64,000 nt of DNA from Variovorax sp. PAMC28562 (GTDB taxonomy: Bacteria > Pseudomonadota > Gammaproteobacteria > Burkholderiales > Burkholderiaceae_C). Below, in pieces: positions 16,241-28,280 of this stretch. Where the stretch lies: the NCBI RefSeq assembly GCF_014303735.1, contig NZ_CP060296.1, forward strand, positions 3,555,501 through 3,619,500, given 5' to 3'. The notes beneath the pieces were generated by a model. That model saw only the letters and a list, made by a program, of their open reading frames with translations. It was not told the DNA's origin and did no database searches. The position numbers were made by a program, and so were the translations under genes. The stretch's first letter is position 1, and every line of letters starts with the position of its first letter.

Positions 16241-16252
16241 ATGGAGAAAGCA

Positions 16253-16903
16253 ATGCAGGACTTCACGACGACCACCTTCGGCATCCTGGTCTTCCCCGAG
16301 GTAGAAGAACTCGACTTCGTCGGCCCGTGGGAAATGCTCACGATGTGGAGCAAGGTCGCAAACGGACCCGGCCGCTGCCTCATCGTCTCCGAATCGCCGG
16401 GGCCGTTGACATGCGCCAAGGGTCTGTCGATCAACCCGCATGTGTCGTTCGCGGACTGCCCGCCGCTCGACTATCTGCTGGTGCCGGGCGGGCAGGGCAC
16501 GCGCCGTGAAGTCGGCAATCGCGCGCTGCTGGATTTCGTCTCGTCTCAGGCCGCGAACTGCCGTGCCGTGCTGTCCGTTTGCACCGGCTCTTTCGTGTTG
16601 CACGCCACCGGCCTGCTCGCCGGCAAAAGGGCCACGACGCACTGGGCGCAGCTCGATCGCTTTCGTGAACTCGGGGACGTCGATGTGGTCGAGGAGCGCT
16701 TCGTGCGCGACGGCAAGCTGTGGTCGTCGGCGGGCGTGTCGGCCGGCATCGACCTCATGCTGGCGTTCATCGCGAGCGAGTCCGGCGACGATGCGGCGGG
16801 CAAGGTGCAACACGCGTCGGAGTACTACCCGGCGGAGACGCGCTACGGCAAGTACGAAGACCATGCGCAAGCGCCTGCGTACCTGAAGCGACCACGCCCG
16901 TAA
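16253..16903 (+). CDS. DJ-1/PfpI family protein (GATase1-like)
   Basis: 216-residue protein with the class I glutamine-amidotransferase-like fold. The nucleophile elbow is visible as SVCTGSFVLHATGLLAGKRA (Cys at about residue 109), followed by TTHW, a pattern shared with isonitrile-hydratase-like and regulator-associated PfpI domains. There is no AraC DNA-binding domain, so it acts alone in the cytoplasm. ATG at 16253 is preferred over 16241 because GGAG lies six bases upstream. Substrate unknown. Confidence 0.85.
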   Translation: MQDFTTTTFGILVFPEVEELDFVGPWEMLTMWSKVANGPGRCLIVSESPGPLTCAKGLSINPHVSFADCPPLDYLLVPGGQGTRREVGNRALLDFVSSQAANCRAVLSVCTGSFVLHATGLLAGKRATTHWAQLDRFRELGDVDVVEERFVRDGKLWSSAGVSAGIDLMLAFIASESGDDAAGKVQHASEYYPAETRYGKYEDHAQAPAYLKRPRP

Positions 16904-16939: not shown

Positions 16940-17215
16940 CTACTTGCCAATCGGCGCGAAGCGCTGCCGCATGAAGTTGCGCACATGCGGCGTAAATTCC
17001 ATAAATCCCTTCACCGCGTGGAACTCCGGCGTGTCGTAGACCCAGTCGCCGGCCACTTCGTAGATGGCCGCGTACTTCGGCCCGTATTCCAGTGAGACGC
17101 AGCGGCTTGCCGACAGCCAGCCGGGGCAAGCCAGCAGCGCGGGCACATCTACTTCTTCGTACCAGCGATTGAAGGCGTTCATCACGCATGCGTTGCAGTA
17201 CATGCAGAGCCGCAT
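16940..17215 (-). CDS. Small DUF4286/EthD-like alpha-beta barrel protein
   Basis: 91-residue protein with the NRWYEEVDVPALLACPGWLSA pattern typical of small dimeric ferredoxin-like barrels (EthD/DUF4286-like), which often act as lyases, isomerases or accessory proteins in catabolic clusters. No catalytic residue can be named. The start is uncertain: the N-terminus (MRLCMYCNAC) is Cys-rich and unusual for the family. It is the last gene of the leftward arm of the LacI divergon, 83 bp after the permease stop. Confidence 0.6.
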   Translation of the reverse strand: MRLCMYCNACVMNAFNRWYEEVDVPALLACPGWLSASRCVSLEYGPKYAAIYEVAGDWVYDTPEFHAVKGFMEFTPHVRNFMRQRFAPIGK

Positions 17216-17298
17216 CGCGTGCAGCCAGAACGACGACTCGACGCCCTAGCCACAGCGCGCCTCCGTTGCGGCTCCACGTGCTGCGCCCCTGCAGCCGA

Positions 17299-18006
17299 TC
17301 AGGCAGCGGCCGGGCTGCGTAGAGCCGGAGTCCTGTCCTGGGTCGGCGCATAGCCGCGGCCGTAGTGCCGCTCCAGGCGCCGCTGCACCACGTCCCATAG
17401 CGAGGTGAGCACCAGGTAGAAAACGGCCGCTACGCAATAGAGCTCCAGCACCTCGAACTTCGCCTGCATCAGCACCTGCGCGCGGCGCATCAGTTCTTCC
17501 ATCGAGATCACGGACGCGAGCGAGGTGGCCTTCAGCAACCCGTTCACCGAATTGCCCAGCGGCGGAATGATGATGCGGATCACTTGCGGCAGCGTCACGA
17601 GCCGAAGCGTCGCAACCTTGGACAGGCTCAGGGCCTTGGCCGCCTCGATCTGCCCCTTGGCAACGGCCGAAAATCCAGCCCGGATGGTCTCCGACAAATA
17701 GGCCGCTTCGTTGAGACTCAGCGCGAGCACGGCGGAGGTCAGTACGTCGAAGCGCAAGCCCAGTTGCGGCAGGCCGGTGTAGATGATCACGATCTGCACC
17801 AGCAGCGGCGTGCCGCGGAAGATCCAGATATAGAACTTGGCCGGACCGCGCAGGAACGCGCGGTCGGACATGCTCGCCAGCGCCAGTGGCAGCGCCAGGG
17901 CCAGACCGATGATGATCGTGGTGATCGTCAGCCCGATCGTGATCGCCACGCCGCCCAACAGGTACGGGTTGATCAGGTAGGACAGGAAAGCGTCGACGTT
18001 GAACAC
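17299..18006 (-). CDS. Polar amino-acid-type ABC transporter permease
   Basis: 235-residue inner-membrane subunit of the HisM/GlnP family with about five hydrophobic helices. The EAA loop, which docks the ATPase, is visible as EAAKALSLSKVATLRLVTLPQ. The GTG start at 18006 follows the binding-protein gene by 37 bp. Only one permease gene is present, so the channel is presumably a homodimer. The partner ATPase is not on this strand; the only candidate is at 25356 in the opposite arm of the divergon. Confidence 0.9.
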   Translation of the reverse strand: MFNVDAFLSYLINPYLLGGVAITIGLTITTIIIGLALALPLALASMSDRAFLRGPAKFYIWIFRGTPLLVQIVIIYTGLPQLGLRFDVLTSAVLALSLNEAAYLSETIRAGFSAVAKGQIEAAKALSLSKVATLRLVTLPQVIRIIIPPLGNSVNGLLKATSLASVISMEELMRRAQVLMQAKFEVLELYCVAAVFYLVLTSLWDVVQRRLERHYGRGYAPTQDRTPALRSPAAA

Positions 18007-18043
18007 GGACCGGTCTTTCTGTTTGCCTCGCGCTGCGAGCCGA

Positions 18044-18886
18044 TTACTTCGGCGCCGGGCCGGACCCGCGGATCGCGAAGTTCGTCGTGTCCTTCAGGCG
18101 CGTCATCCTGAACTTGTCGAACAGCTTGTCGTAGGTGCCCTCGGCCTTTAGTTCGTTCAGCGCGGCAGCGGCTCCAAGGGCCGTTGTCTTGTCGCGGTAG
18201 GTGACGGTGATGTCGGTGCCGTTGATGCCGCTGAGCCACACCTTGGCAATGCCGCGCTCGGCAAAGGTGATGGCGGTTTCGTCGATGTTGATGCCGGCCT
18301 CTAGCTGGCCGGCGCGCAGCGCCGCCGTGGTTTCGGAGGCGGTCGCGAAGGTGCGGAAGTCGATCGTCTTCAGGCCGCGAGCGACCATGTCGGCATTGAA
18401 TTCCCGGGACTTGCGCTCCTGGTAGGTGCCAGTTTCAATACCGACCACATGACCTGCCAGATCGTCGAACTTGGTGATTTTGAACGGGCTCGTCGGCACC
18501 GTGTAGACGCTCATCGCCTGCTGGCCGTAGGGAATCATGAACATCAGCTTGGAACGCTCTTCGGTCCAGAACATGCCCGTGTTGATCATGTCGAAGCGGC
18601 CGGCCTGCAGGGCGGGAATCATCGGCGGCATGTCCATCCGCATGAAGACGGGCTCGAGGCACAGCTTGGCAGCGATGGCCTTTCCGAGCTCGACGTTGAG
18701 GCCCTGCAACTCGCCTTTTTCGTCGACGAACTGTTGCGGTGGCAGGGTCGGGTTGATGGACATCTGCAACTTGCCGGCAGACACCAGATGCTCGGCGCTG
18801 ATCTTGGGGGTACAGGGCTGCGCCATCGCCGAAGCGCAGAACACGGCGCCGATGAAGAGCGCAAGAACGGGATTCGGTATGTGCAT
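18044..18886 (-). CDS. ABC transporter substrate-binding protein, amino-acid type
   Basis: 280-residue periplasmic binding protein (SBP_bac_3 family). The start at 18886 gives a clean signal peptide ending in CASAMAQ. Conserved blocks include FVDEKGELQGLNVELGKAIA and the hinge motif around AGRFDMINTGMFWTEER. It precedes the permease and belongs with it. The family binds amino acids, but related proteins bind opines, dicarboxylates and other small acids; the surrounding CoA and DapA-type enzymes suggest an organic acid or amino acid derivative. Confidence 0.88.
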   Translation of the reverse strand: MHIPNPVLALFIGAVFCASAMAQPCTPKISAEHLVSAGKLQMSINPTLPPQQFVDEKGELQGLNVELGKAIAAKLCLEPVFMRMDMPPMIPALQAGRFDMINTGMFWTEERSKLMFMIPYGQQAMSVYTVPTSPFKITKFDDLAGHVVGIETGTYQERKSREFNADMVARGLKTIDFRTFATASETTAALRAGQLEAGINIDETAITFAERGIAKVWLSGINGTDITVTYRDKTTALGAAAALNELKAEGTYDKLFDKFRMTRLKDTTNFAIRGSGPAPK

Positions 18887-18946
18887 GGTGTGCTTTCGTA
18901 AGACGAAGATTGAAGAGAAGAAAAAGGAACCTGGAGACACTCAGAG

Positions 18947-19165
18947 TCAGACCGACGGGCTGCATGCCAGCAGTGCGCTGTGCAGTGCCTCGATGACGCA
19001 TTCGTCGCGCTGGTTCAGCAAGCACAGCGACTCGGTCACGATGCCGCGGCCGGAACGCGAAGACGCACGCTTCTCGGTAAATACGAAGCTCACGCGGACC
19101 ACGTCGCCTGCAACGACAGGTTGCAAGAACCGCACCCGGTCCCATCCGAGCGAGACGATCCCTCG
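18947..19165 (-). pseudogene. Truncated MaoC-like enoyl-CoA hydratase remnant
   Basis: The frame from about 19165 to the TGA at 18947 reads like the C-terminal half of a MaoC hot-dog hydratase: GWDRVRFLQPVVAGD, then VRVSFVFTEKRASSRSGRGIV, then LLNQRDECVIEALH. The N-terminal half with the catalytic Asp/His is absent; instead the sequence joins, out of frame, the 3' end of the CoA-transferase gene. A GTG at 19135 could start a 62-residue product, but it would be catalytically dead. Best read as a deletion scar that removed the intergenic region and the 5' half of a maoC gene. Confidence 0.65.
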
Positions 19166-20745
19166 GGCACCTCGATGTGGCGCGGCGCCTGCGCTACGAA
19201 TGCGTCGCGCATGCCCATCGGGCCAACGCGGAAAATGCGCTCGTCCATGGTCTTGAGCGATTCGCTGATGCGCACCGCAAAGCCGATCTGGTCGAGCACG
19301 TCTTCCTGCAGCCGCACGCCCGGAGCGATCTCGGTCAGCACGAGGCCAGCCGGCTCCATTTCGAACACGGCGCGGTCGGTGATGAAGGTCACGTGCTGTC
19401 CGCGCTCGCGAGCCAGGCGACCCGAGAAGCTGATCTGGTCGACCTCTGGGACGAACTTTTTGAACTTGCCGTCGCGGCGGATGGAAAGCGCGTTGTCGAC
19501 CACGCCGATGTCGAAGTCGCCACCGGTCAGCGAGCCGTTGAACACCAGCCGCTTCGTGTTCTGCGTGATGTTGATGAAGCCGCCGGCGCCGTCATAGCGC
19601 TTGCCGAAGCGGGTGACGTTGACGTTGCAGTGCCTGTCGACCTGTGCGAACGACAAGAAGGCGCAACTCAGGCCGCCGCCGTCGTAGAAGTCGAACTGAT
19701 ACGACTGGTCGAGGATGACCCGCGGGTTGACCGAAGTGCCGAACTCGCGTGCATGGCCCGGCACGCCGCCGACCGCACCCGACTCGACGGTGAGCGTGAT
19801 CATCTCGTCTATGCCTTCCTCGGCCGCGACATTGGGGATCATGGCCGAGAGGCCGACGCCGAGGTTCACCACGTCACGCGGGCGCAGCTCGAAAGCCGCT
19901 CTGCGCGCCACCACGCGGCGCGCGTCCAGCGGGTCGGGCGCGATGCTCGAACTTGGAACGATGGTCTCGCCGCAGCGCGCCGGATCGAACTGGGTCGCGT
20001 AGGTTTGCATCTGATCGGGCTGCACCACGAAGTGGTCGATCAGGAAGCCGGGGATCTTCACCATGTGCGGATGCAGCGTGCCGCGCTTGACGACACGCTT
20101 GACCTGGCAGATCACGGTGCCGCCGGCGTTGTGCACGGCCTGCGCCATCGACAGGTCTTCTCGCGCGGTGGCTTCATGTTCCATGCTGACGTAGCCGTCT
20201 TCATCCGCCGAGGTGCCGCGGATCAGCGCGACCGAAGGTACGCCGGGTGCGCGATAAAACAGATAGTCCTTGCCGCCGATGGCGACGAGTTCGACCAGCT
20301 TTTCAGTCGTGCGCGCGTTCATGCGGCCGCCTTCCTGCCGCGGGTCCATGTACGTTTCCAGACCCACGTGCGTGAGCACGCCGGGCTGGCGGCCGGCCAT
20401 CGCGCGGCACAGGTGCGTCATCACGCCCTGCGGAAAGTTGTAGGCCTCCAGTTCCTGGTCGAGCACCAGCTTCATGAAGGGCAACTGCATGCCGAAGTTG
20501 CCGCCGATCACGCGCCGGACGAGTCCCTTGTGCGCGAAACGGCACATACCTTTTTCTGTCAGCGCACCGACGCCGGTGATGTGGAAGAGAGTGATGCCGT
20601 GCGGCCCGTCACCGGACAAGAAGCGGCGTTCGATGGCTTCGAACACTGCCTCGGGTACGCCTGAACCGCCGTTGCCGCCAGCCAGCACCATGTCGCCATC
20701 CTTCAGCAGCGCGGCGGCTTCGTCGGGCGAGATGCAGTCGATCAT
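19090..20745 (-). CDS. Acyl-CoA:acetate/3-ketoacid CoA-transferase (fused subunits)
   Basis: 551-residue class I CoA-transferase with alpha and beta halves in one chain (YdiF-like). The glycine loop GGNGGSGVPE near the N-terminus and the catalytic Glu in VESGAVGGVPG (about residue 320) are present. It activates a carboxylic acid by CoA transfer or removes CoA at the pathway end. Start at 20745 overlaps the acyl-CoA dehydrogenase stop (ATGA). The natural protein probably ended near FRVGPMGM; the last 35 residues run into MaoC sequence in the wrong frame, so the C-terminus is likely altered. Confidence 0.88.
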   Translation of the reverse strand: MIDCISPDEAAALLKDGDMVLAGGNGGSGVPEAVFEAIERRFLSGDGPHGITLFHITGVGALTEKGMCRFAHKGLVRRVIGGNFGMQLPFMKLVLDQELEAYNFPQGVMTHLCRAMAGRQPGVLTHVGLETYMDPRQEGGRMNARTTEKLVELVAIGGKDYLFYRAPGVPSVALIRGTSADEDGYVSMEHEATAREDLSMAQAVHNAGGTVICQVKRVVKRGTLHPHMVKIPGFLIDHFVVQPDQMQTYATQFDPARCGETIVPSSSIAPDPLDARRVVARRAAFELRPRDVVNLGVGLSAMIPNVAAEEGIDEMITLTVESGAVGGVPGHAREFGTSVNPRVILDQSYQFDFYDGGGLSCAFLSFAQVDRHCNVNVTRFGKRYDGAGGFINITQNTKRLVFNGSLTGGDFDIGVVDNALSIRRDGKFKKFVPEVDQISFSGRLARERGQHVTFITDRAVFEMEPAGLVLTEIAPGVRLQEDVLDQIGFAVRISESLKTMDERIFRVGPMGMRDAFVAQAPRHIEVPEGSSRSDGTGCGSCNLSLQATWSA

Positions 20746-21884
20746 GCGAATTCTTTCTCGACCTGCTTGGCGATGATCAGGCGCTGGATCTGGTTGGTGC
20801 CTTCGTAGATCTGGGCCAGCCGCACGTCGCGGAAGATGCGCTCGATCCGGTACTCGCGCGAGTAGCCGTTGCCGCCATGCACCTGCAAGGCGTTCGACAC
20901 ATGCTTCATGGCCATGTCGGTGGTGAAGAGCTTGGCGTGCGCCGCTTCCTTTGCGTAGGGCAGGCCGGCGTCGAACACGCGCGACGCGTAGTGGATGAGC
21001 AGTCGCGCGGCTGCGATGTCGGTCGACATGTCGGCCACCATGAACTGAATGGCCTGGAAGTTCATGATCGGCTCGCCGAACTGCTTGCGCGTGGTGGCGT
21101 AGGTCACCGCGTCTTCCATCGCGGCCTGCGCCATGCCCAGCGCCATCGACGACATCAGGAGGCGACTGAAGTTGAAGTTGCCCATGGCCGTCTTGAAGGC
21201 CTGGTTCTCGGCGCCGATGAGCGCGGTCTTGGGCACATGCACGTCCTGCAGCACGATCTGGCAATCCTCCAGGCCGTGCATGCCCAGCAGTTCCTCGTTC
21301 TTGCCGCGGCTCACGCCCGGTGACGACGCATCGACCAGAAAGCAGCTGATCGAACGGTGGCCGGCTTCCTTGCCGGTGCGCGCGAACACCATGATGCGGT
21401 CGGCCACGCCACCGAGGGTGACCCAGGCCTTGGTGCCGTTGAGAACATAGCCGTCGTCGGTCACCCGGGCGGTGGTCTGGATGCTCGCGGCATCGGAGCC
21501 GAAGTCGGGTTCGGTCATGGCGGTGGCGAACACGATCGAGCCATCGAGGATGCCGGGGATCAGCGCCTTCTGGCTCTCGTTTCCGTGATGGTGAAGAAAC
21601 AGCGCTGCTTCCACGGGGATGGCGAAAGCATTGCCGATGGCGGCCGAGCAGCGCGCGATTTCCTCCATCACGAGGCAAAGGCTGACCGTGTCCAGGGCCG
21701 AACCCCCCGACGATTCCGGCAGGCTGATGCCGAACAGGCCCAGGCCAGCCATGCCGCGATAGAGCGTGCGGTCGAAGGTGTCTTCGCGGTCGATCGCGGC
21801 GGCGCGCGGCAGAACCTCGGCCTCGGCGAAACGGCGTGCGGTATCGCGCACCGACATCTGGTCTTCGGTGTAGAAATGATTCAT
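20742..21884 (-). CDS. Acyl-CoA dehydrogenase
   Basis: 380-residue FAD flavoenzyme that inserts a C2-C3 double bond into an acyl-CoA. Signature blocks are AMTEPDFGSDAA, TKAWVTLGG and the C-terminal IYEGTNQIQRLIIAK, in which the Glu is the usual catalytic base of short/medium-chain members. Full length, no signal peptide. Start at 21884 overlaps the tautomerase stop (ATGA), and its own stop overlaps the CoA-transferase start, so three genes are translationally coupled. With the CoA-transferase and the lost MaoC hydratase it forms a short beta-oxidation-like set. Confidence 0.93.
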   Translation of the reverse strand: MNHFYTEDQMSVRDTARRFAEAEVLPRAAAIDREDTFDRTLYRGMAGLGLFGISLPESSGGSALDTVSLCLVMEEIARCSAAIGNAFAIPVEAALFLHHHGNESQKALIPGILDGSIVFATAMTEPDFGSDAASIQTTARVTDDGYVLNGTKAWVTLGGVADRIMVFARTGKEAGHRSISCFLVDASSPGVSRGKNEELLGMHGLEDCQIVLQDVHVPKTALIGAENQAFKTAMGNFNFSRLLMSSMALGMAQAAMEDAVTYATTRKQFGEPIMNFQAIQFMVADMSTDIAAARLLIHYASRVFDAGLPYAKEAAHAKLFTTDMAMKHVSNALQVHGGNGYSREYRIERIFRDVRLAQIYEGTNQIQRLIIAKQVEKEFA

Positions 21885-22276
21885 TGCGCAGCGGTGGTGT
21901 CGGACGGCTCGTCGCTCGCAAGGTGGCCGTCGTGCGCCACCTCGTCGCGCTCGCGGTCCATGAAATAGATGGCGACGTTGTGGGCCGCCGTGTCGAAGCA
22001 CGCGGCAATGGCCGGCGTCATGGATTCGGCAACGGCGCGCCGCTGGTCGGCGCTGCGGCGATACGCATGCACCTTCACGAAGACGCGGCTGTCGCTCGCG
22101 GGCAGGCCGAACTGGCCGGCGTGCGCGTAGTCGCCGTGGGCGATCGGAACGAAATAGATCGTCACCGTCGAGGGCGCGACATCGAAACCGCGGACGATGC
22201 CCTCGGTGACGGCCTCGACCACTTTGCGCTTTCCGGTGTCGGCGGCGCGTGGCGCCAGAACTTCTACATAGGGCAT
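21881..22276 (-). CDS. Tandem tautomerase-superfamily protein
   Basis: 131 residues comprising two 4-oxalocrotonate-tautomerase-like beta-alpha-beta units in one chain (about 1-60 and 62-125). The second residue is Pro (MPYVEV), the catalytic base after Met removal; the second unit begins internally and lacks its own Pro. Fused tautomerases of this size include cis-CaaD and malonate-semialdehyde-decarboxylase-like enzymes, which hydrate or decarboxylate unsaturated acids. Start at 22276 places this Pro correctly. It is 19 bp downstream of lacI and overlaps the dehydrogenase gene. Confidence 0.82.
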   Translation of the reverse strand: MPYVEVLAPRAADTGKRKVVEAVTEGIVRGFDVAPSTVTIYFVPIAHGDYAHAGQFGLPASDSRVFVKVHAYRRSADQRRAVAESMTPAIAACFDTAAHNVAIYFMDRERDEVAHDGHLASDEPSDTTAAQ

Positions 22277-22295
22277 GGGTTGCTTCAGGGATGCT

Positions 22296-23318
22296 TCAGG
22301 TCGTGCTCGAGGTGTTGGGCAGTGCGCTGCACGAAGCACGTTCGACGAGCCGCGAGCCGATGCGGTATTCGCGGCCACTGTTGGCCACGCCGCCGAGGCG
22401 GGACATAAGACGGTCGACCGCGAGGTTCGCCATGTCGGCGGCACCGCTGTCGACCACGCTGATGGCGGGGCGATGCCACTGAAACCAGGGCGAGTCTTCG
22501 TAGAACAGCAAAGACAGGTCCAGTGAAATGGCGAGGCCGCGCTCCGAAATCACGCGCAGCACGCCCACCGACGACTCGTGGTTCGCCACGAACAGTGCCG
22601 TTGGCGGCGCTGGAAGCGACAGCATCGCGTTGGCGCCCGCCACGCCGGTCTCGGGGACGTAGCGACCGCGGTGGATGAGGGTCGGATCGATGGGCAGGCC
22701 CGCTTCCTGCATGGCCCGGGTATAGCCCGCCAGCCGTTCCTTGCCCGAAGTCGTATCACCAGGCCCCACGATCAAACCGATGCGCCGATGTCCCAGACCC
22801 AGCAGGTGTTGTGTGCCGGCGTACGCGCCATCCATGTCGGCCGCCAGGATGGATTCGAGCGACGCGCCGGCCACACGCCGCACGGCGCAGATGACCGGAA
22901 TGTCGGCATGTTCCATGGCCAGCAGGGCCGCGCCATTGGCGCCGGTCGGCACGGCAATGACGCCGTCGACGTTGTGGTCCACGAGCGTCTTGAAGATCTC
23001 GCGTTCCTGCTCGGCATCGTCGTTGCTGATGCTCAGGATGACCTGGTATCCGAGCGTCTGCATGCGGGACTGCACGACCGAGGCCAGCACGCGAAAGGAA
23101 GCGTTTTCAAGGTTGTGGACTGTCAGCCCGATGAGGCGCGACTTGCGCGTCCGGAGCGCGCGGGCTGCCGTATTGGTGCGATAGCCGAGCGCTGCGGCGA
23201 CGGCGACGACGTGCCGCTGCGTCGCCTGGTTGGTCAGGTTCGAGCCGGCGAGGGCGCGCGACGCAGTAGCGATGGAAACGTCTGCGGCACGTGCCACATC
23301 GCGCAGGGTGACGCTCAT
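22296..23318 (-). CDS. LacI-family transcriptional regulator
   Basis: 340-residue LacI/GalR-type repressor. The helix-turn-helix (TLRDVARAADVSIATASRAL) and hinge helix (NTAARALRTRKS) occupy residues 3-58; a ribose-binding-like effector domain follows. It is the first gene of the leftward arm and diverges from the DapA-like genes. Two perfect matches to the LacI-family consensus TGNAANCGNTTNCA lie in the intergenic region, one just upstream of its own start, so autoregulation and control of both arms are likely. The inducer is unknown. Confidence 0.92.
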   Translation of the reverse strand: MSVTLRDVARAADVSIATASRALAGSNLTNQATQRHVVAVAAALGYRTNTAARALRTRKSRLIGLTVHNLENASFRVLASVVQSRMQTLGYQVILSISNDDAEQEREIFKTLVDHNVDGVIAVPTGANGAALLAMEHADIPVICAVRRVAGASLESILAADMDGAYAGTQHLLGLGHRRIGLIVGPGDTTSGKERLAGYTRAMQEAGLPIDPTLIHRGRYVPETGVAGANAMLSLPAPPTALFVANHESSVGVLRVISERGLAISLDLSLLFYEDSPWFQWHRPAISVVDSGAADMANLAVDRLMSRLGGVANSGREYRIGSRLVERASCSALPNTSSTT

Positions 23319-23344
23319 GGCTGAAACAAATAAACAGCTAAAAA

Positions 23345-23358
23345 TGAAAACGATTGCA
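23345..23358. promoter_or_regulatory. LacI-type operator O1 (lacI side)
   Basis: TGAAAACGATTGCA fits the LacI-family half-site consensus TGNAANCGNTTNCA at every fixed position, with the central CG. It lies 27-40 bp upstream of the lacI ATG and just downstream of the candidate lacI -10 element, where bound repressor would block transcription. Confidence 0.8.
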
Positions 23359-23365
23359 TTCTCTT

Positions 23366-23395
23366 ACTGTAAGTCTTGCGGAGAGTACAAGTCAA
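23366..23395 (-). promoter_or_regulatory. Candidate lacI-arm promoter
   Basis: On the minus strand TTGACT (23395-23390) and TACAGT (23371-23366) are separated by 18 bp, a good sigma-70 pair for this GC-rich genome. It points to the leftward operon, with operator O1 directly downstream. Inferred from sequence only. Confidence 0.5.
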
Positions 23396-23433
23396 ATTCG
23401 ACTCTAGCTATTCCCTTGAGTTTAGGCAAGTTA

Positions 23434-23463
23434 TTGCAATCGATTCCAGTCATGTTGCATACT
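23434..23463 (+). promoter_or_regulatory. Candidate dapA-arm promoter
   Basis: TTGCAA (23434-23439) and CATACT (23458-23463) are separated by 18 bp and sit 36 bp upstream of the first DapA-like gene. Operator O2 overlaps the -35 element, which would give direct repression. Inferred from sequence only. Confidence 0.45.
23435..23448. promoter_or_regulatory. LacI-type operator O2 (dapA side)
   Basis: TGCAATCGATTCCA matches TGNAANCGNTTNCA at every fixed position. Its start is exactly 90 bp from that of O1, so a dimer-of-dimers repressor could loop the region and shut both arms. It overlaps the candidate -35 of the rightward promoter. Confidence 0.8.
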
Positions 23464-23498
23464 GCCGGCACCTTACCTACAGGGTTTCATAGGGCTTC

Positions 23499-24440
23499 AT
23501 GACATTTCCGGTTTCCGGCGTGGGCGGCATCTGGCCCGCCACGCTTACCCCCTTTGCGCCCGGCGGCGCCATTGACGACGTCGCGCTTGCGGCCCATGTG
23601 CATGAAGTGGCGTCCACCGCCGGCGTGCGCGCCGTGGTGGTCAATGGCCACGCTGGCGAAACTTCGTCGCTCAACCGGCTGGAGCGCGCGCATGTGGTGG
23701 ACGTGGCCGTGCGGGCTGCCGGCCGGATACCAGTGGTCGCGGGCGTCGTGGCGGAAGACACGCGCGATGCCTGCGCGCTGGCAGTCGACGCGGCGGAGGC
23801 GGGCGCCTCGGCACTGCTGCTCTTTCCACCGATGCTGTTTGGAGGCGGTTCGGCCCTGCGTCCCGAGATGGCGCTGCGCTTCGTCAAGGACGTAGCCGGG
23901 GCCACGCGATTGCCCATCGTGCTGTTTCAGTTGTCGCGTTCTTCGGGCCTCGCTTTTTCCACCGGCTTGCTGGTGCGTTTGTGCAGCGAAGTGCCCTATA
24001 TCGTCGCCATCAAGGACGGTACCGACGTGCCCGAACTTTATGAAGACAACCTGCGCGCCATCCGCCGCCTCGACCGTCCGGTCACGATGCTGACGACCAA
24101 CAACAGCTGGCTTTTCGCCTCGCTCACCTATGGCGCCGACGGCATCCTGTCGGGCATCGGCAGCGTTGCCGCGCCGTTGCTGGTCGAAATGCACGAGGCC
24201 GTCGCGGCCGGCCGGCTCGACGCCGCCCGAGCCGCGAACGATCGGTTGGTGCCGCTGTGCCGCGCCTTCTATCGCGCACCGTACCTTGACAGCCACAACC
24301 GCATGAAGACCGCGCTGCACATGCTCGGACGGCTGCCGCATCCCGATCCGCGCCTGCCACTGCTGCCGCTCGCCGACGATGACAAGACTCGCATCCGCGC
24401 CGCGCTGGTCGCGTCCGGACTGCTCGACGACAAATGTTGA
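23499..24440 (+). CDS. DapA-like lyase, first paralogue (lacks catalytic Tyr)
   Basis: 313-residue (beta/alpha)8 barrel of the dihydrodipicolinate synthase / N-acetylneuraminate lyase family. The Schiff-base Lys is visible in YIVAIKDGTD and the substrate loop in NGHAGETSS. The usual Tyr of the YNxP motif is replaced: the segment reads LFQLSRSSG, so the proton-relay residue is missing. It probably catalyses an aldol or decarboxylation step on an unknown 2-oxo acid, not lysine biosynthesis. First gene of the rightward arm; the second paralogue starts 13 bp later. Confidence 0.85.
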   Translation: MTFPVSGVGGIWPATLTPFAPGGAIDDVALAAHVHEVASTAGVRAVVVNGHAGETSSLNRLERAHVVDVAVRAAGRIPVVAGVVAEDTRDACALAVDAAEAGASALLLFPPMLFGGGSALRPEMALRFVKDVAGATRLPIVLFQLSRSSGLAFSTGLLVRLCSEVPYIVAIKDGTDVPELYEDNLRAIRRLDRPVTMLTTNNSWLFASLTYGADGILSGIGSVAAPLLVEMHEAVAAGRLDAARAANDRLVPLCRAFYRAPYLDSHNRMKTALHMLGRLPHPDPRLPLLPLADDDKTRIRAALVASGLLDDKC

Positions 24441-24453
24441 GAACGACCGAAAA

Positions 24454-25359
24454 ATGAAACATTTTCGCGGTACTTACACCATCATGGTGACGCCCTTCGA
24501 TGCGGCGGGTGAGGTCGACGTTTCAGCGCTGGAGCGCTATGTCGACTGGCAGATCGAATCGGGCATCCACGGGTTGATCCCGTTGGGCTCGACCGGCGAG
24601 TTCCTGTCGATGACCGACGACGAGATCGAGCTGGTCGCCAGGACCGTGATCGACCGCGCAGCCAATCGCGTGCCGGTGATCATCGGTACCACTGCCGAAG
24701 ACACCCGCGTGGCTGCGCGCAAGAGCCGCATGGCCGAGTCGCTCGGCGCGGACGGCGTGATGGTGCTGCCGCCGTTCTATTCCACGCCGACCGACGACGA
24801 GATTTACCAGCACTACAAAAGCATTTCGGACGCCATCGGCATCCCCATCATGGTCTACAACAATCCGGCCGTGACCAATGTCGACCTGAAGCCGCCGCTG
24901 GTCGCGCGGCTCTCGCAGATCGACAACTGCCGCTACATCAAGGAGTCGACGCTCGAGGTCACCCGCGTGCGCGACATCATGCGGCTGTCGGACGGCCGCA
25001 TGGCCGTGTTCGGCGGGATCATGGGCTTCGAGTCGTACGTCGAAGGCGCGGTGGGCTGGGCGGCCGTGCCGTCGAACGGCGCACCGGCCGAGATGGCCCG
25101 GCTCTACGATCTGGTGATGGCCGGCAAGCTCGCCGAGGCACGCGCACTGTCCTTCAAGTATTTTCCGATGATCGATTTCGTCGCCGGCCAGCAGTACGTG
25201 GCCGGCACCAAGGCGCTGCTCACGGCCATGGGCCTGCCGGTCGGTGGACCCCGCCCACCGCGACTGCCGATGGGCCCCGAAGGCATTGCCGCCGCCCACC
25301 GAATCGTCGACGAACTTGGCCTGCACATAGAGCTTTCAACTTCCGGAGTCCGCGCATGA
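24454..25359 (+). CDS. DapA-like lyase, second paralogue
   Basis: 301-residue member of the same family as its upstream neighbour, but with canonical residues: PLGSTGEF substrate loop, Tyr in VYNNPA and the Schiff-base Lys in YIKEST. The ATG at 24454 is used because homology begins at [14 protein letters not shown]. Such enzymes cleave or form 2-oxo acids, releasing pyruvate. Its stop overlaps the ATPase start (ATGA). Two different DapA paralogues in one operon suggest sequential steps or a hetero-oligomer. Confidence 0.88.
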
Positions 25360-26129
25360 ACACGCTTGCAGAAATCCAGCCGCAAAACGCTGCCAACGAC
25401 TTGGTCATCCGCATGGTCAACGTGCAGAAGTGGTTCGGCGAATTCCAGGTGCTGCGCGATATCAATCTCGAAGTGCGACGCGGCGAGCGCATCGTGATCT
25501 GCGGCCCGTCGGGTTCCGGCAAGTCGACCCTGTTGCGCTGCATCAACCGGCTCGAGGAACATCAGCAGGGCAACATCGTCGTCAACCGCGTCGAACTCAC
25601 CAACGACATGCGGCGCATCGACGCGGTGCGTCGCGAGGTCGGCATGGTGTTCCAGCACTTCAACCTGTTCCCGCACCTGACCATCCTCGAGAACTGCACG
25701 CTCGCGCCCATCTGGAGCAAGAAGTACGCGCCCAGGGAAGCGAAGGAAGTCGCGATGGCGTACCTCACCAAAGTGAAGATCCCCGACCAGGCGAACAAGT
25801 ACCCGTCGCAGCTTTCTGGCGGCCAGCAGCAGCGCGTGGCGATCGCCCGTGCCCTGTGCATGAGTCCGAAAGTCATGCTGTTCGACGAGCCGACCTCTGC
25901 GCTCGACCCGGAGATGGTCAAGGAGGTGCTCGACACGATGGTCTCGCTGGCCGAGGACGGCATGACGATGCTGTCCGTCACGCACGAGATGGGCTTCGCG
26001 CGCCAGGTCGCCAACCGCGTGATTTTCATGGACCAAGGCACTATCCTCGAGGAGGGCCCGCCGGCAGACTTCTTCGGCAATCCGCAGCATGAGCGCACGC
26101 GGCTTTTTCTGAGCCAGTTGCTGCACTGA
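25356..26129 (+). CDS. Amino-acid-type ABC transporter ATP-binding protein
   Basis: 257-residue ATPase of the polar amino acid uptake family (GlnQ/HisP). Walker [10 protein letters not shown], signature LSGGQQQR, Walker [14 protein letters not shown] and switch His in SVTHEMGF are all intact. A long insertion between Walker A and the Q-loop ([20 protein letters not shown]) is typical. No permease or binding protein is next to it; the matching pair lies 7 kb away at 17299-18886 on the other arm, so it probably energises that permease. Confidence 0.92.
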
Positions 26130-26177: not shown

Positions 26178-27584
26178 TCAAACCAACCGCTTGATCGCCT
26201 TCTTCCGCCACACCGCCCGGTAGTAAGTCGTTTGCAGAATCAACATCGCCACGAACGCAGCCGGGTAGGCCACCCACACCCCGTTCAGCCCGATGCGATG
26301 GCTCACGACCCACGCCACTGGCACCTCGACACCGACGATGCACACGATGGAGATCAGCGTCGGCACCAGCACCGAGCCGCTGGCCCGCATGATCCCGGAC
26401 AGCGCCGACGCCATGCCGAAGATGACAAGGCTCCACAGCATGATGTGCAGCAGTGATTGAGCGATGTCGATCACCGGCGCGCTGGTGATGAACAAGGCCA
26501 TCAGGTGACGCGAGAACAGATAGCCCAGCAGCACCAGGCCCCCGGTCAGGCACAGGTTCATGACCAGCGCCATCCGCGCGATGGCGCCGAGCCTGTCGGC
26601 ATGACCTGCGCCAATGGCCTGGGCGCCCAGGATCGATGCGGTGATCGCGATCGAGATGGCCGGGAACTGGACGTACGCCACCACCTGATTGACCGCACCA
26701 TAGGCCGCCGTTGCGCTCGACCCGTAGCTGTTGACCATCGACAGCAGCGCGATCTCGGCCAGCGCGATCACGATGGTTTGGACACCTGTCGGCACGCCGA
26801 TCTTGAGCACGGCCTTGAGGAGCTTGGGGTCGATGCGCAGGTGCCGCATGAAGTCCGCATCGGGCGCCAACGGGCTCTTGCGGTGGCGCAGCCGCCAGCC
26901 TAGCCACAGCGTCGCGACGACGAAAGCCACCGTGGTGGCCCAGGCGCCACTCGCCACGCCGAGTTGCGGCAAGCCACCCCAGCCGCGAATGAGCGCGGGC
27001 GTGACGAGGAGGCCGGTCAACGTCGAAATGAACAGCGTCATCAACGGCGTGACGGTGTCACCGACGCCGCGCAGCATGGCCGTCGACAGCAGGAACACGA
27101 AGAGCCCCGGCATCGCGATCAACATGATGCGGGCGTAGCGCGTCGAGTCCGCAAGCACGTCGGCCGGCGTGCCGAGCACGGCCAGCATCGGCGTCGTGAA
27201 AACGCCGCCGAACAGCGCGACCAACAGGCCCATCAGCACGCCGACCGTGAGCGTCGTGCCGGCCACGGCCTTGACCTTGTCGACGTCGCCCGCGCCCCAT
27301 GCCTGGCCGATGAGCACCGACGCGCCGGCGCCCAGCCCGATGACGAAGGCGATGAAAAAGAACATCACCGGAAAGAAGCTCGACACCGCCGCCAGCGCTC
27401 CCACGCCGAGCATCTGGCCGACGTAGATATTGTTGAGCGTGCCCGACAGCGACTGCAGGATGTTGCTGAGCAACATCGGCGCGAGGAAGAAAAGAAAGGT
27501 CTTCCGCAACGGACGTGCTGAGCGCCCGGCGGGATCGGTCAGGTCGGATGTCGCGACGCGTGGCGCCTTCTGGTCTGAAAACAT
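26178..27584 (-). CDS. MATE-family multidrug/Na+ antiporter
   Basis: 468-residue inner-membrane protein with about 12 hydrophobic helices in two related halves, as in NorM/DinF transporters. The opening LFFLAPMLLSNILQSLSGTLNNIYVGQMLG is typical of helix 1. The ATG at 27584 is used; an in-frame ATG at 27608 would add eight residues. It ends convergently with the ABC ATPase gene (48 bp gap) and diverges from pqiA with 57 bp between starts, which must hold both promoters. Exported compounds unknown. Confidence 0.9.
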   Translation of the reverse strand: MFSDQKAPRVATSDLTDPAGRSARPLRKTFLFFLAPMLLSNILQSLSGTLNNIYVGQMLGVGALAAVSSFFPVMFFFIAFVIGLGAGASVLIGQAWGAGDVDKVKAVAGTTLTVGVLMGLLVALFGGVFTTPMLAVLGTPADVLADSTRYARIMLIAMPGLFVFLLSTAMLRGVGDTVTPLMTLFISTLTGLLVTPALIRGWGGLPQLGVASGAWATTVAFVVATLWLGWRLRHRKSPLAPDADFMRHLRIDPKLLKAVLKIGVPTGVQTIVIALAEIALLSMVNSYGSSATAAYGAVNQVVAYVQFPAISIAITASILGAQAIGAGHADRLGAIARMALVMNLCLTGGLVLLGYLFSRHLMALFITSAPVIDIAQSLLHIMLWSLVIFGMASALSGIMRASGSVLVPTLISIVCIVGVEVPVAWVVSHRIGLNGVWVAYPAAFVAMLILQTTYYRAVWRKKAIKRLV

Positions 27585-27641
27585 GCGGAGGATTCTGCCC
27601 GCTCGCATGAACCGTTCGCTGGCTTTGGGCAGAATCGCAGC

Positions 27642-28280
27642 ATGACTGAACTTCCCGGAGTGACGGTGTGCGATGGCTGCGACGCGGTCTATCGGCACGC
27701 GACCCTGCGACCCCGTGAGGTGGCGCGCTGCCAGCGCTGCGGCACCGAACTCGCACGCAATGCCGGCGAGCAAAAGCGCCGCATCCTTCCGCTCACGGTG
27801 GCGAGCCTGATCCTGTTTGCGATCGCCAACCTATTTCCCATCGTCGAGATCGAATTGCAGGGTCGCCGCAGCCAGACCACGTTGTTCGGTGCGGTGGTCG
27901 CGCTGACCGGGGAGGGCATGTCGCCGGTGGCGCTGCTGGTGCTGGCGACAACCTTGCTGTTCCCCCTCATGCAGCTGCTGATCCTGTTCTATCTGCTGGT
28001 GCCGCTCACGCGCGGCGCACGGCCGCCCGGTTTCGCGCTGCTGGTGCGCGTGCTCCAGTCGCTCCGCCCGTGGGGAATGATCGAAGTTTTTCTGCTGGGC
28101 GTGCTGGTCGCCATCGTGAAGCTGTCGGGCATGGCGACGGTGGTGGCAGGCCCGGCACTGTGGGCTTTCGTCGGGCTCACGGTGCTGCTGACCTCGGTGG
28201 TGTCGTTCGATCCGCGGGCGTTCTGGGAGATGGCGTTCACGAATCCGGCGTCCGAGCTTCCATCGGAGCCAGTATCTTGA
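27642..28280 (+). CDS. pqiA: PqiA-like membrane protein, first half
   Basis: 212-residue inner-membrane protein equal to one half of E. coli PqiA: an N-terminal zinc ribbon (VCDGCDAVY, then CQRCGTEL) followed by four helices. PqiA anchors the PqiB needle that moves lipids between inner and outer membranes. Here the function is divided between two genes, this and the next. The stop overlaps a TTG start of the second half. Confidence 0.88.
   Translation: MTELPGVTVCDGCDAVYRHATLRPREVARCQRCGTELARNAGEQKRRILPLTVASLILFAIANLFPIVEIELQGRRSQTTLFGAVVALTGEGMSPVALLVLATTLLFPLMQLLILFYLLVPLTRGARPPGFALLVRVLQSLRPWGMIEVFLLGVLVAIVKLSGMATVVAGPALWAFVGLTVLLTSVVSFDPRAFWEMAFTNPASELPSEPVS

Follow-up and report, generated by a model that had tools for sequence, protein, structure and literature searches.

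Which compound is imported and degraded by the divergent gene cluster at positions 16940-26129 of the 64,000-nucleotide stretch (the window) that we analysed from the 4.69-Mb, single-contig genome of Variovorax sp. PAMC28562? The leftward arm of this cluster is headed by lacI and continues with genes for a tautomerase, an acyl-coenzyme A (CoA) dehydrogenase, a CoA-transferase, the remnant of a MaoC-like hydratase, a solute-binding protein, a permease and a small protein, and the rightward arm consists of dapA1, dapA2 and the ATPase gene of an ATP-binding cassette (ABC) importer. All of these genes had been listed in an earlier sequence-only reading of this DNA and were recovered at the same positions; four-base overlaps (tautomerase/dehydrogenase, dehydrogenase/CoA-transferase and dapA2/ATPase) fit the expectation for operons. 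Our answer, to which we give almost an even chance of being right, is that the divergon (module A) encodes a LacI-repressed importer together with the CoA-dependent breakdown of a carboxylate that is tied to a cyclic ureide or amide. Comparison with related genomes also takes the analysis beyond the earlier reading in three respects: it reveals links of the module to hydantoinase, DUF3830 and ureidoglycolate lyase genes, it uncovers a deletion that breaks the MaoC gene, and it identifies the small protein as the truncated copy of a gene from a sister module.

The divergon itself, its conservation and its operator pair are close to certain. The LacI/GalR-family regulator (22296-23318, minus strand; 340 amino acids; PF00356 and PF13377) is encoded at the head of the leftward arm, and between the arms lie two palindromic operators with a central CG: operator 1 (TGAAAACGATTGCA, 23345-23358), the placement of which is kept in relatives, and operator 2 (TGCAATCGATTCCA, 23435-23448), which starts 90 bp from operator 1. 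Both are exact matches to TGNAANCGNTTNCA, which we take to be the usual palindrome of LacI/GalR-type regulators, and they are the only exact sites in the window; three more sites are found when one mismatch is allowed, with shuffled sequences giving 1.37 in all, and the stricter pattern TGNAANCGATTNCA occurs at three places genome-wide, two of them at the divergon. A candidate promoter for the leftward arm (23366-23395, minus strand; TTGACT-18-TACAGT, a weak hit in a consensus scan) ends beside operator 1, although finding one such promoter against a mean of 0.4 in shuffles is hardly above chance. The 300 bp upstream of lacI were then surveyed over 34 loci, lacI being located in 26 of them (25 of the 32 related loci described below and L080, on plasmid CP099604.1): two exact operators 87-90 bp apart are present in 15 of the 26, one in three and none in eight, the last group being Roseomonas and other Acetobacteraceae, half of which (4/8) have a one-mismatch site. 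The 15 twin-operator loci are not all independent, because L040 and L041 apparently represent the same strain. The sequence-only reading had proposed one LacI-controlled divergon and had named arms without co-regulation as the finding that would speak against it; the twin operators between the arms, retained in relatives, instead make it very likely that a single repressor governs both.

The earlier reading would also have been contradicted had no other genome kept these genes together, yet 32 loci in alpha- and betaproteobacteria that retain most of the module were recovered when the genome collection was scanned once with an alignment (A1) of the tautomerase from the window and 27 out of a set of 101 proteins. 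Gene order is retained from Variovorax to Bosea, Azorhizobium and Roseomonas, and because the same order recurs in relatives it is not due to chance. A match in these loci covers over half of the query at E 1e-12, so that distant paralogues are included; gene calls come from a rough caller of open reading frames, with some frames wrong, and some loci (e.g. L046) are cut by contig ends. On this basis the acyl-CoA dehydrogenase is matched in 29/32 loci (66-93% identity), MaoC in 28 (52-100% to the L054 copy), the permease in 28 (55-89%), the CoA-transferase in 27 (65-92%), dapA2 in 27 (52-92%) and lacI in 25 (58-88%). The binding protein is found at 60% identity or more in 27 loci and at 45% in one more, dapA1 at that level in 22 loci and at 36-40% in seven more, and the ATPase in 16 with five more under 50%. 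In L048 (2741-5729), a contig of a metagenome-assembled genome, matches to the CoA-transferase and the binding protein are broken up across frames, by sequencing error or decay. The module has a patchy distribution, of the kind expected of accessory catabolic genes: 27 of 250 Comamonadaceae genomes, that of PAMC28562 counted, encode a DapA1 relative at a threshold of E 1e-30, only one besides PAMC28562 shows more than 60% identity, and the two genomes of the same genus within that sample encode none.

As to function, the families present agree with the uptake, CoA activation and dehydrogenation that had been proposed from the sequence. The importer is of the PAAT type and comprises a permease (17299-18006, minus strand; PF00528, TIGR01726), a family-3 solute-binding protein (18044-18886, minus strand; PF00497) and an ATPase (25356-26129, plus strand), the last assigned from its translation and from a homologue rather than by a family library: plasmid CP099604.1 encodes a protein, annotated as the ATPase of an amino acid ABC importer, with which it shares 90% identity. 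An acid or an amino acid derivative had been suggested as the imported compound; the acid part of this suggestion stands, and an amino acid is less supported, because the binding protein keeps the arginine that presumably binds the carboxylate (38/38 rows, each with 200 or more aligned residues) and not the canonical aspartate that we assume to bind the amine. The aspartate is replaced by Ile, Ala, Leu, Pro or Val in all 38 rows, a call that is tentative since an acidic residue often follows one position later. The CoA-transferase (19090-20745, minus strand; PF01144) is of the YdiF/FadX type and scores 435.6 bits against YdiF (2ahu), and the acyl-CoA dehydrogenase (20742-21884, minus strand; 380 amino acids; PF00441, PF02770, PF02771) has acyl-CoA dehydrogenases as its nearest PDB chains and carries a YEGT motif, which we take to hold the catalytic glutamate.

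The remaining enzymes are less easily placed. The tautomerase (21881-22276, minus strand; 131 amino acids; PF01361) is a tandem, fused protein resembling 4-oxalocrotonate tautomerase (4-OT), with Pro-1 in its first half only; the proline after the initial methionine is invariant in 28/28 aligned sequences, and the tandem beta-alpha-beta fold is recovered. Its nearest PDB sequence match reaches only E 0.004, and the clear fold match ties fused 4-OT, Cg10062 and cis-CaaD, from which the protein differs (12-20% identity to the top rows), so that the fold does not select a reaction. DapA1 (23499-24440, plus strand; PF00701, 124 bits) and DapA2 (24454-25359, plus strand; PF00701, 196.2 bits) share with the DHDPS/NAL superfamily the fold family and the Schiff-base lysine, the latter present in every aligned row shown. 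They depart from it in residues that we assume to form the DapA relay (Thr44-Tyr107-Tyr133) and in what is presumably the DapA arginine (Arg138): DapA1 is of an NGHAGE type, with His in the Thr44 column, no Tyr at Tyr107 and Phe in the Tyr133 column, and DapA2 keeps both tyrosines, has Ser for Thr44 and does not keep the arginine. Flanking the divergon are a DJ-1/PfpI-like frame (16241-16903) and a MATE-like efflux frame (26178-27773), both named by eye from their translations.

From these families we infer the following order of events. A single LacI repressor, bound to the two operators 90 bp apart, would silence both arms until an inducer appears; the PAAT-type importer would then bring in a carboxylate that probably has no free alpha-amine. 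A D-hydantoinase/dihydropyrimidinase, encoded within the divergon in some relatives and elsewhere in the PAMC28562 genome, would open a ring-type precursor, the CoA-transferase would convert the acid to its CoA thioester, the acyl-CoA dehydrogenase would desaturate the thioester for subsequent hydration by MaoC, and the tautomerase and the two Schiff-base lyases would process oxo and enol products.

The possible link to ureides or amides comes from the neighbours of the module in relatives. A D-hydantoinase/dihydropyrimidinase is encoded in the examined stretch of 13/32 loci (the L042 copy scoring 535.9 bits with TIGR02033, cut-off 393.25), a DUF3830 protein (PF12903) in 12 and a PuuE-type protein in two, giving 18 loci with at least one of the three; independent cases are fewer, because the Xenophilus group supplies six of these loci. 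The clearest layout is that of Variovorax sp. 679 (L045), a row of 12 genes with DUF3830 at one end and the hydantoinase at the other: DUF3830, ATPase, DapA2 and DapA1, followed divergently by LacI, tautomerase, dehydrogenase, CoA-transferase, MaoC, binding protein, permease and hydantoinase. As a base rate, a hydantoinase at E 1e-80 occurs at 45 places spread over 38 of 100 Comamonadaceae genomes, which at about 4 Mb per genome corresponds to a chance of roughly 0.2% for a random 20-kb stretch, a rough figure as the sample and the loci differ in taxonomy. In the Xenophilus group a gene for a xanthine-dehydrogenase-type subunit with 2Fe-2S and FAD domains (L042:16945-18561; similar frames in L043 and L044) follows the hydantoinase gene, and a link to purines is possible. 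Beside dapA2 of Azorhizobium oxalatiphilum (L053:5451-6950) stands a gene for an amidase-signature protein (PF01425). For DUF3830 itself, the only structural lead is 3kop at E 0.018, and no literature was found in a search that excluded most subscription papers. The single DUF3830 gene of the PAMC28562 genome lies near a gene for an AtzD-type cyanuric acid amidohydrolase (526.2 bits, cut-off 360), in a stretch (C1:1409000-1424000) that also holds an amidohydrolase-like frame and genes for two proteins resembling RutB and biuret hydrolase, both below cut-off; this stretch may serve the use of cyanurate or barbiturate.

A second link is provided by a sister module, module B, which comprises genes for a CaiB protein, a second acyl-CoA dehydrogenase, two MaoC-like proteins, a DapA-family protein and a small protein, and which we found at eleven loci: seven of the 32 (L052, L054, L055, L060, L062, L063 and L068), plasmid CP099604.1 (L080), Thioclava plasmid p3 (L084) and two Comamonadaceae genomes (L097 and L098). 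In three of the eleven (L080, L097, L098) a ureidoglycolate lyase gene follows that of the small protein and a hydantoinase gene stands beside a DapA gene, the lyase scoring 231.3 bits in L080 (curated subfamily, cut-off 160) and 198.6 with PF04115 in L097. The small protein of the window (16940-17215, minus strand; 91 amino acids) belongs here: it lacks, by eye, the conserved first 20 or so residues, and its identity of 83% and 86% to the L097 and L098 copies makes it a leftover of module B or a mobile piece. It has no Pfam or NCBIfam match at E 0.001; a homologue (L054:4648-4944) matches DUF4286 (28.6 bits, cut-off 25.8), and the L097 copy falls below that cut-off (22.3). Modules A and B occur together within some 40 kb of plasmid CP099604.1 (148809-190665; L080/L081), from an Arabidopsis leaf isolate, and this region also carries several PAAT importers, two hydantoinase genes, genes for a PuuE-type protein and an Asp/Glu racemase, and two annotated ureidoglycolate lyase genes, the second product failing the cut-off of 160 with a score of 122 bits.

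Several observations weigh against a carboxylate tied to a ureide or amide. The cluster in the window contains no hydantoinase, DUF3830 or PuuE-type gene, the same is true of the examined stretch of 14/32 related loci (some of these stretches being short), and 8/10 loci of more distant DapA1 relatives lack a hydantoinase. The PuuE-type proteins score below the curated cut-off of 424.6 (360.1 in L060, 372.3 in L080). The hydantoinase of the PAMC28562 genome, 79% identical to the L042 copy, is encoded 0.28 Mb from the cluster between LysR-like genes (C1:3294259-3295671), and no operator with at most one mismatch was found in the 19.9-kb stretch around it, for which reason control of this gene by the same LacI was rejected. 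For module B, seven of the eleven loci lack both ureidoglycolate lyase and hydantoinase (L063 ends too soon to tell), and the PAMC28562 genome holds only one partial ureidoglycolate lyase match (model positions 100-161, 48 bits). Finally, N-carbamoylase-type genes are present elsewhere in 9/10 records, in seven of which they could not be placed relative to the loci, and this keeps a classical hydantoin route in play.

Alternatively, the substrate could be a plain carboxylic acid, such as a branched, hydroxy- or oxo-dicarboxylate, degraded by a route resembling beta-oxidation with retro-aldol cleavage, in which case the hydantoinase and DUF3830 genes would be unrelated neighbours. The genes in the window need no ureide chemistry, and the 14 loci without ureide-type neighbours are in keeping with this; in three of the 32 loci (L064, L066, L069) and in Thioclava (L083), moreover, the ABC importer is replaced by a DctP-type tripartite ATP-independent periplasmic (TRAP) importer, a type that fits a carboxylate, and the CaiB protein of module B resembles succinate-glutarate and mesaconate CoA-transferases, albeit below cut-off (204.9 of 750 and 188 of 700). 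However, in several genera this row of genes is bounded by hydantoinase or DUF3830 genes, clearly more often than the rough base rate would predict, and module B is joined to ureidoglycolate lyase in 3/11 loci. We consider a plain acid a serious possibility, though one that we would sooner doubt than adopt.

A carboxylate tied to a cyclic ureide or amide, like a plain acid, is a statement about the ancestral module, and either is compatible with the copy in PAMC28562 being a decaying relic, the likelihood of which is not to be added to theirs. Compared with Variovorax ginsengisoli S09.D (L038), in which an intact CoA-transferase end is followed by the MaoC gene, 258 bp are missing from the window (junction at 19160-19161), a loss that takes away the last part of the CoA-transferase gene as well as the 5' half of maoC, where the HPLH motif lies; the C-terminal end of the CoA-transferase is thereby altered, and alignment with L038 and L047 leaves a 3' remnant of maoC (18947-19160, minus strand). 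A stop-free MaoC match that contains HPLH and covers at least 80% of the length is present in 28/32 loci, the examined stretches of L046, L058, L063 and L068 containing none. With MaoC broken, either another hydratase takes over the hydration in this genome or that step is missing. Decay is further suggested by the truncated small protein, by the location of hydantoinase and DUF3830 elsewhere in the genome and by module B, which was not found in it (best CaiB match 37%, the other module B genes not having been searched individually). Against decay, both operators are exact and the remaining genes are open, with ratios of nonsynonymous to synonymous substitution rates (dN/dS) of 0.09-0.30 over ten stretches compared with L038, averages that include time before the deletion: 0.09-0.17 for permease, binding protein, CoA-transferase, dehydrogenase, lacI, dapA1, dapA2 and ATPase, 0.30 for the tautomerase and, on the side of decay, 0.26 for the MaoC remnant (58 codons). 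A relic is a serious possibility, and we lean moderately away from it.

An unlikely elaboration of the ureide link is beta-oxidation of the ureido acid itself, with urea released by a step of the ureidoglycolate lyase type. Here the hydantoinase would open a cyclic ureide and the ureido acid, kept intact, would be made into its CoA thioester; desaturation by the acyl-CoA dehydrogenase and hydration by MaoC at the nitrogen-bearing carbon would give a carbinol-urea, which a ureidoglycolate-lyase-type enzyme (that of module B, or perhaps DUF3830 for module A) would split into urea and an oxoacyl-CoA, to be passed to central metabolism by the tautomerase and the NGHAGE-type lyases. Such a route would bypass N-carbamoylases and 3-hydroxyacyl-CoA dehydrogenases; it fits the three module B loci with ureidoglycolate lyase best and would extend to module A by analogy. 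Least probable by far is amino acid or opine uptake coupled to lysine-type metabolism, which the PAAT transporter family and the DHDPS family might suggest, as DapA1 and DapA2 were rejected as true dihydrodipicolinate synthases by their TIGR00674 scores (122.3 and 194.9, cut-off 206.15), by a proper DapA encoded elsewhere (C1:2980631, 356.3 bits) and by their altered active-site residues, and the binding protein lacks the amine-binding aspartate.

If the divergon does serve to degrade a carboxylate linked to a cyclic ureide or amide, a pathway without described function would be conserved as a unit among alpha- and betaproteobacteria, both chromosomally and on a plasmid, offering an added, CoA-dependent way of using cyclic ureides or amides, and roles would follow for DUF3830, for this fused tautomerase family and for the NGHAGE subfamily of DapA. 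The sequence-only reading could name no pathway for the combination, and we likewise found no description of this gene set in the literature searched, which left out most subscription papers. Reductive degradation of pyrimidines and hydantoins combines a dihydropyrimidinase with a beta-ureidopropionase or N-carbamoylase, and the D-hydantoinase/dihydropyrimidinase in or near the module in 13/32 loci is the point of likeness; plasmid CP099604.1, in contrast, has CoA-transferases, acyl-CoA dehydrogenases and hydratases instead, a search of all its 289,855 bases gave no match to TIGR01879 or PF00795, and the 20-kb stretches of G105 and G132 contain no such match, those of both records lying outside. 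Degradation of allantoin and ureidoglycolate (AllA) is echoed by the curated-subfamily ureidoglycolate lyase that adjoins module B in 3/11 loci, although to our knowledge that pathway involves neither CoA thioester chemistry nor DapA-type lyases. We also know of no counterpart to the hydantoinase, the tautomerase or the DapA-type lyases in CoA pathways of the itaconate/methylsuccinate type, from which the divergon differs further in its YdiF/FadX-type CoA-transferase. What these pathways have in common with the divergon is the logic of CoA-transferase, hydratase and lyase (PMC12290011).

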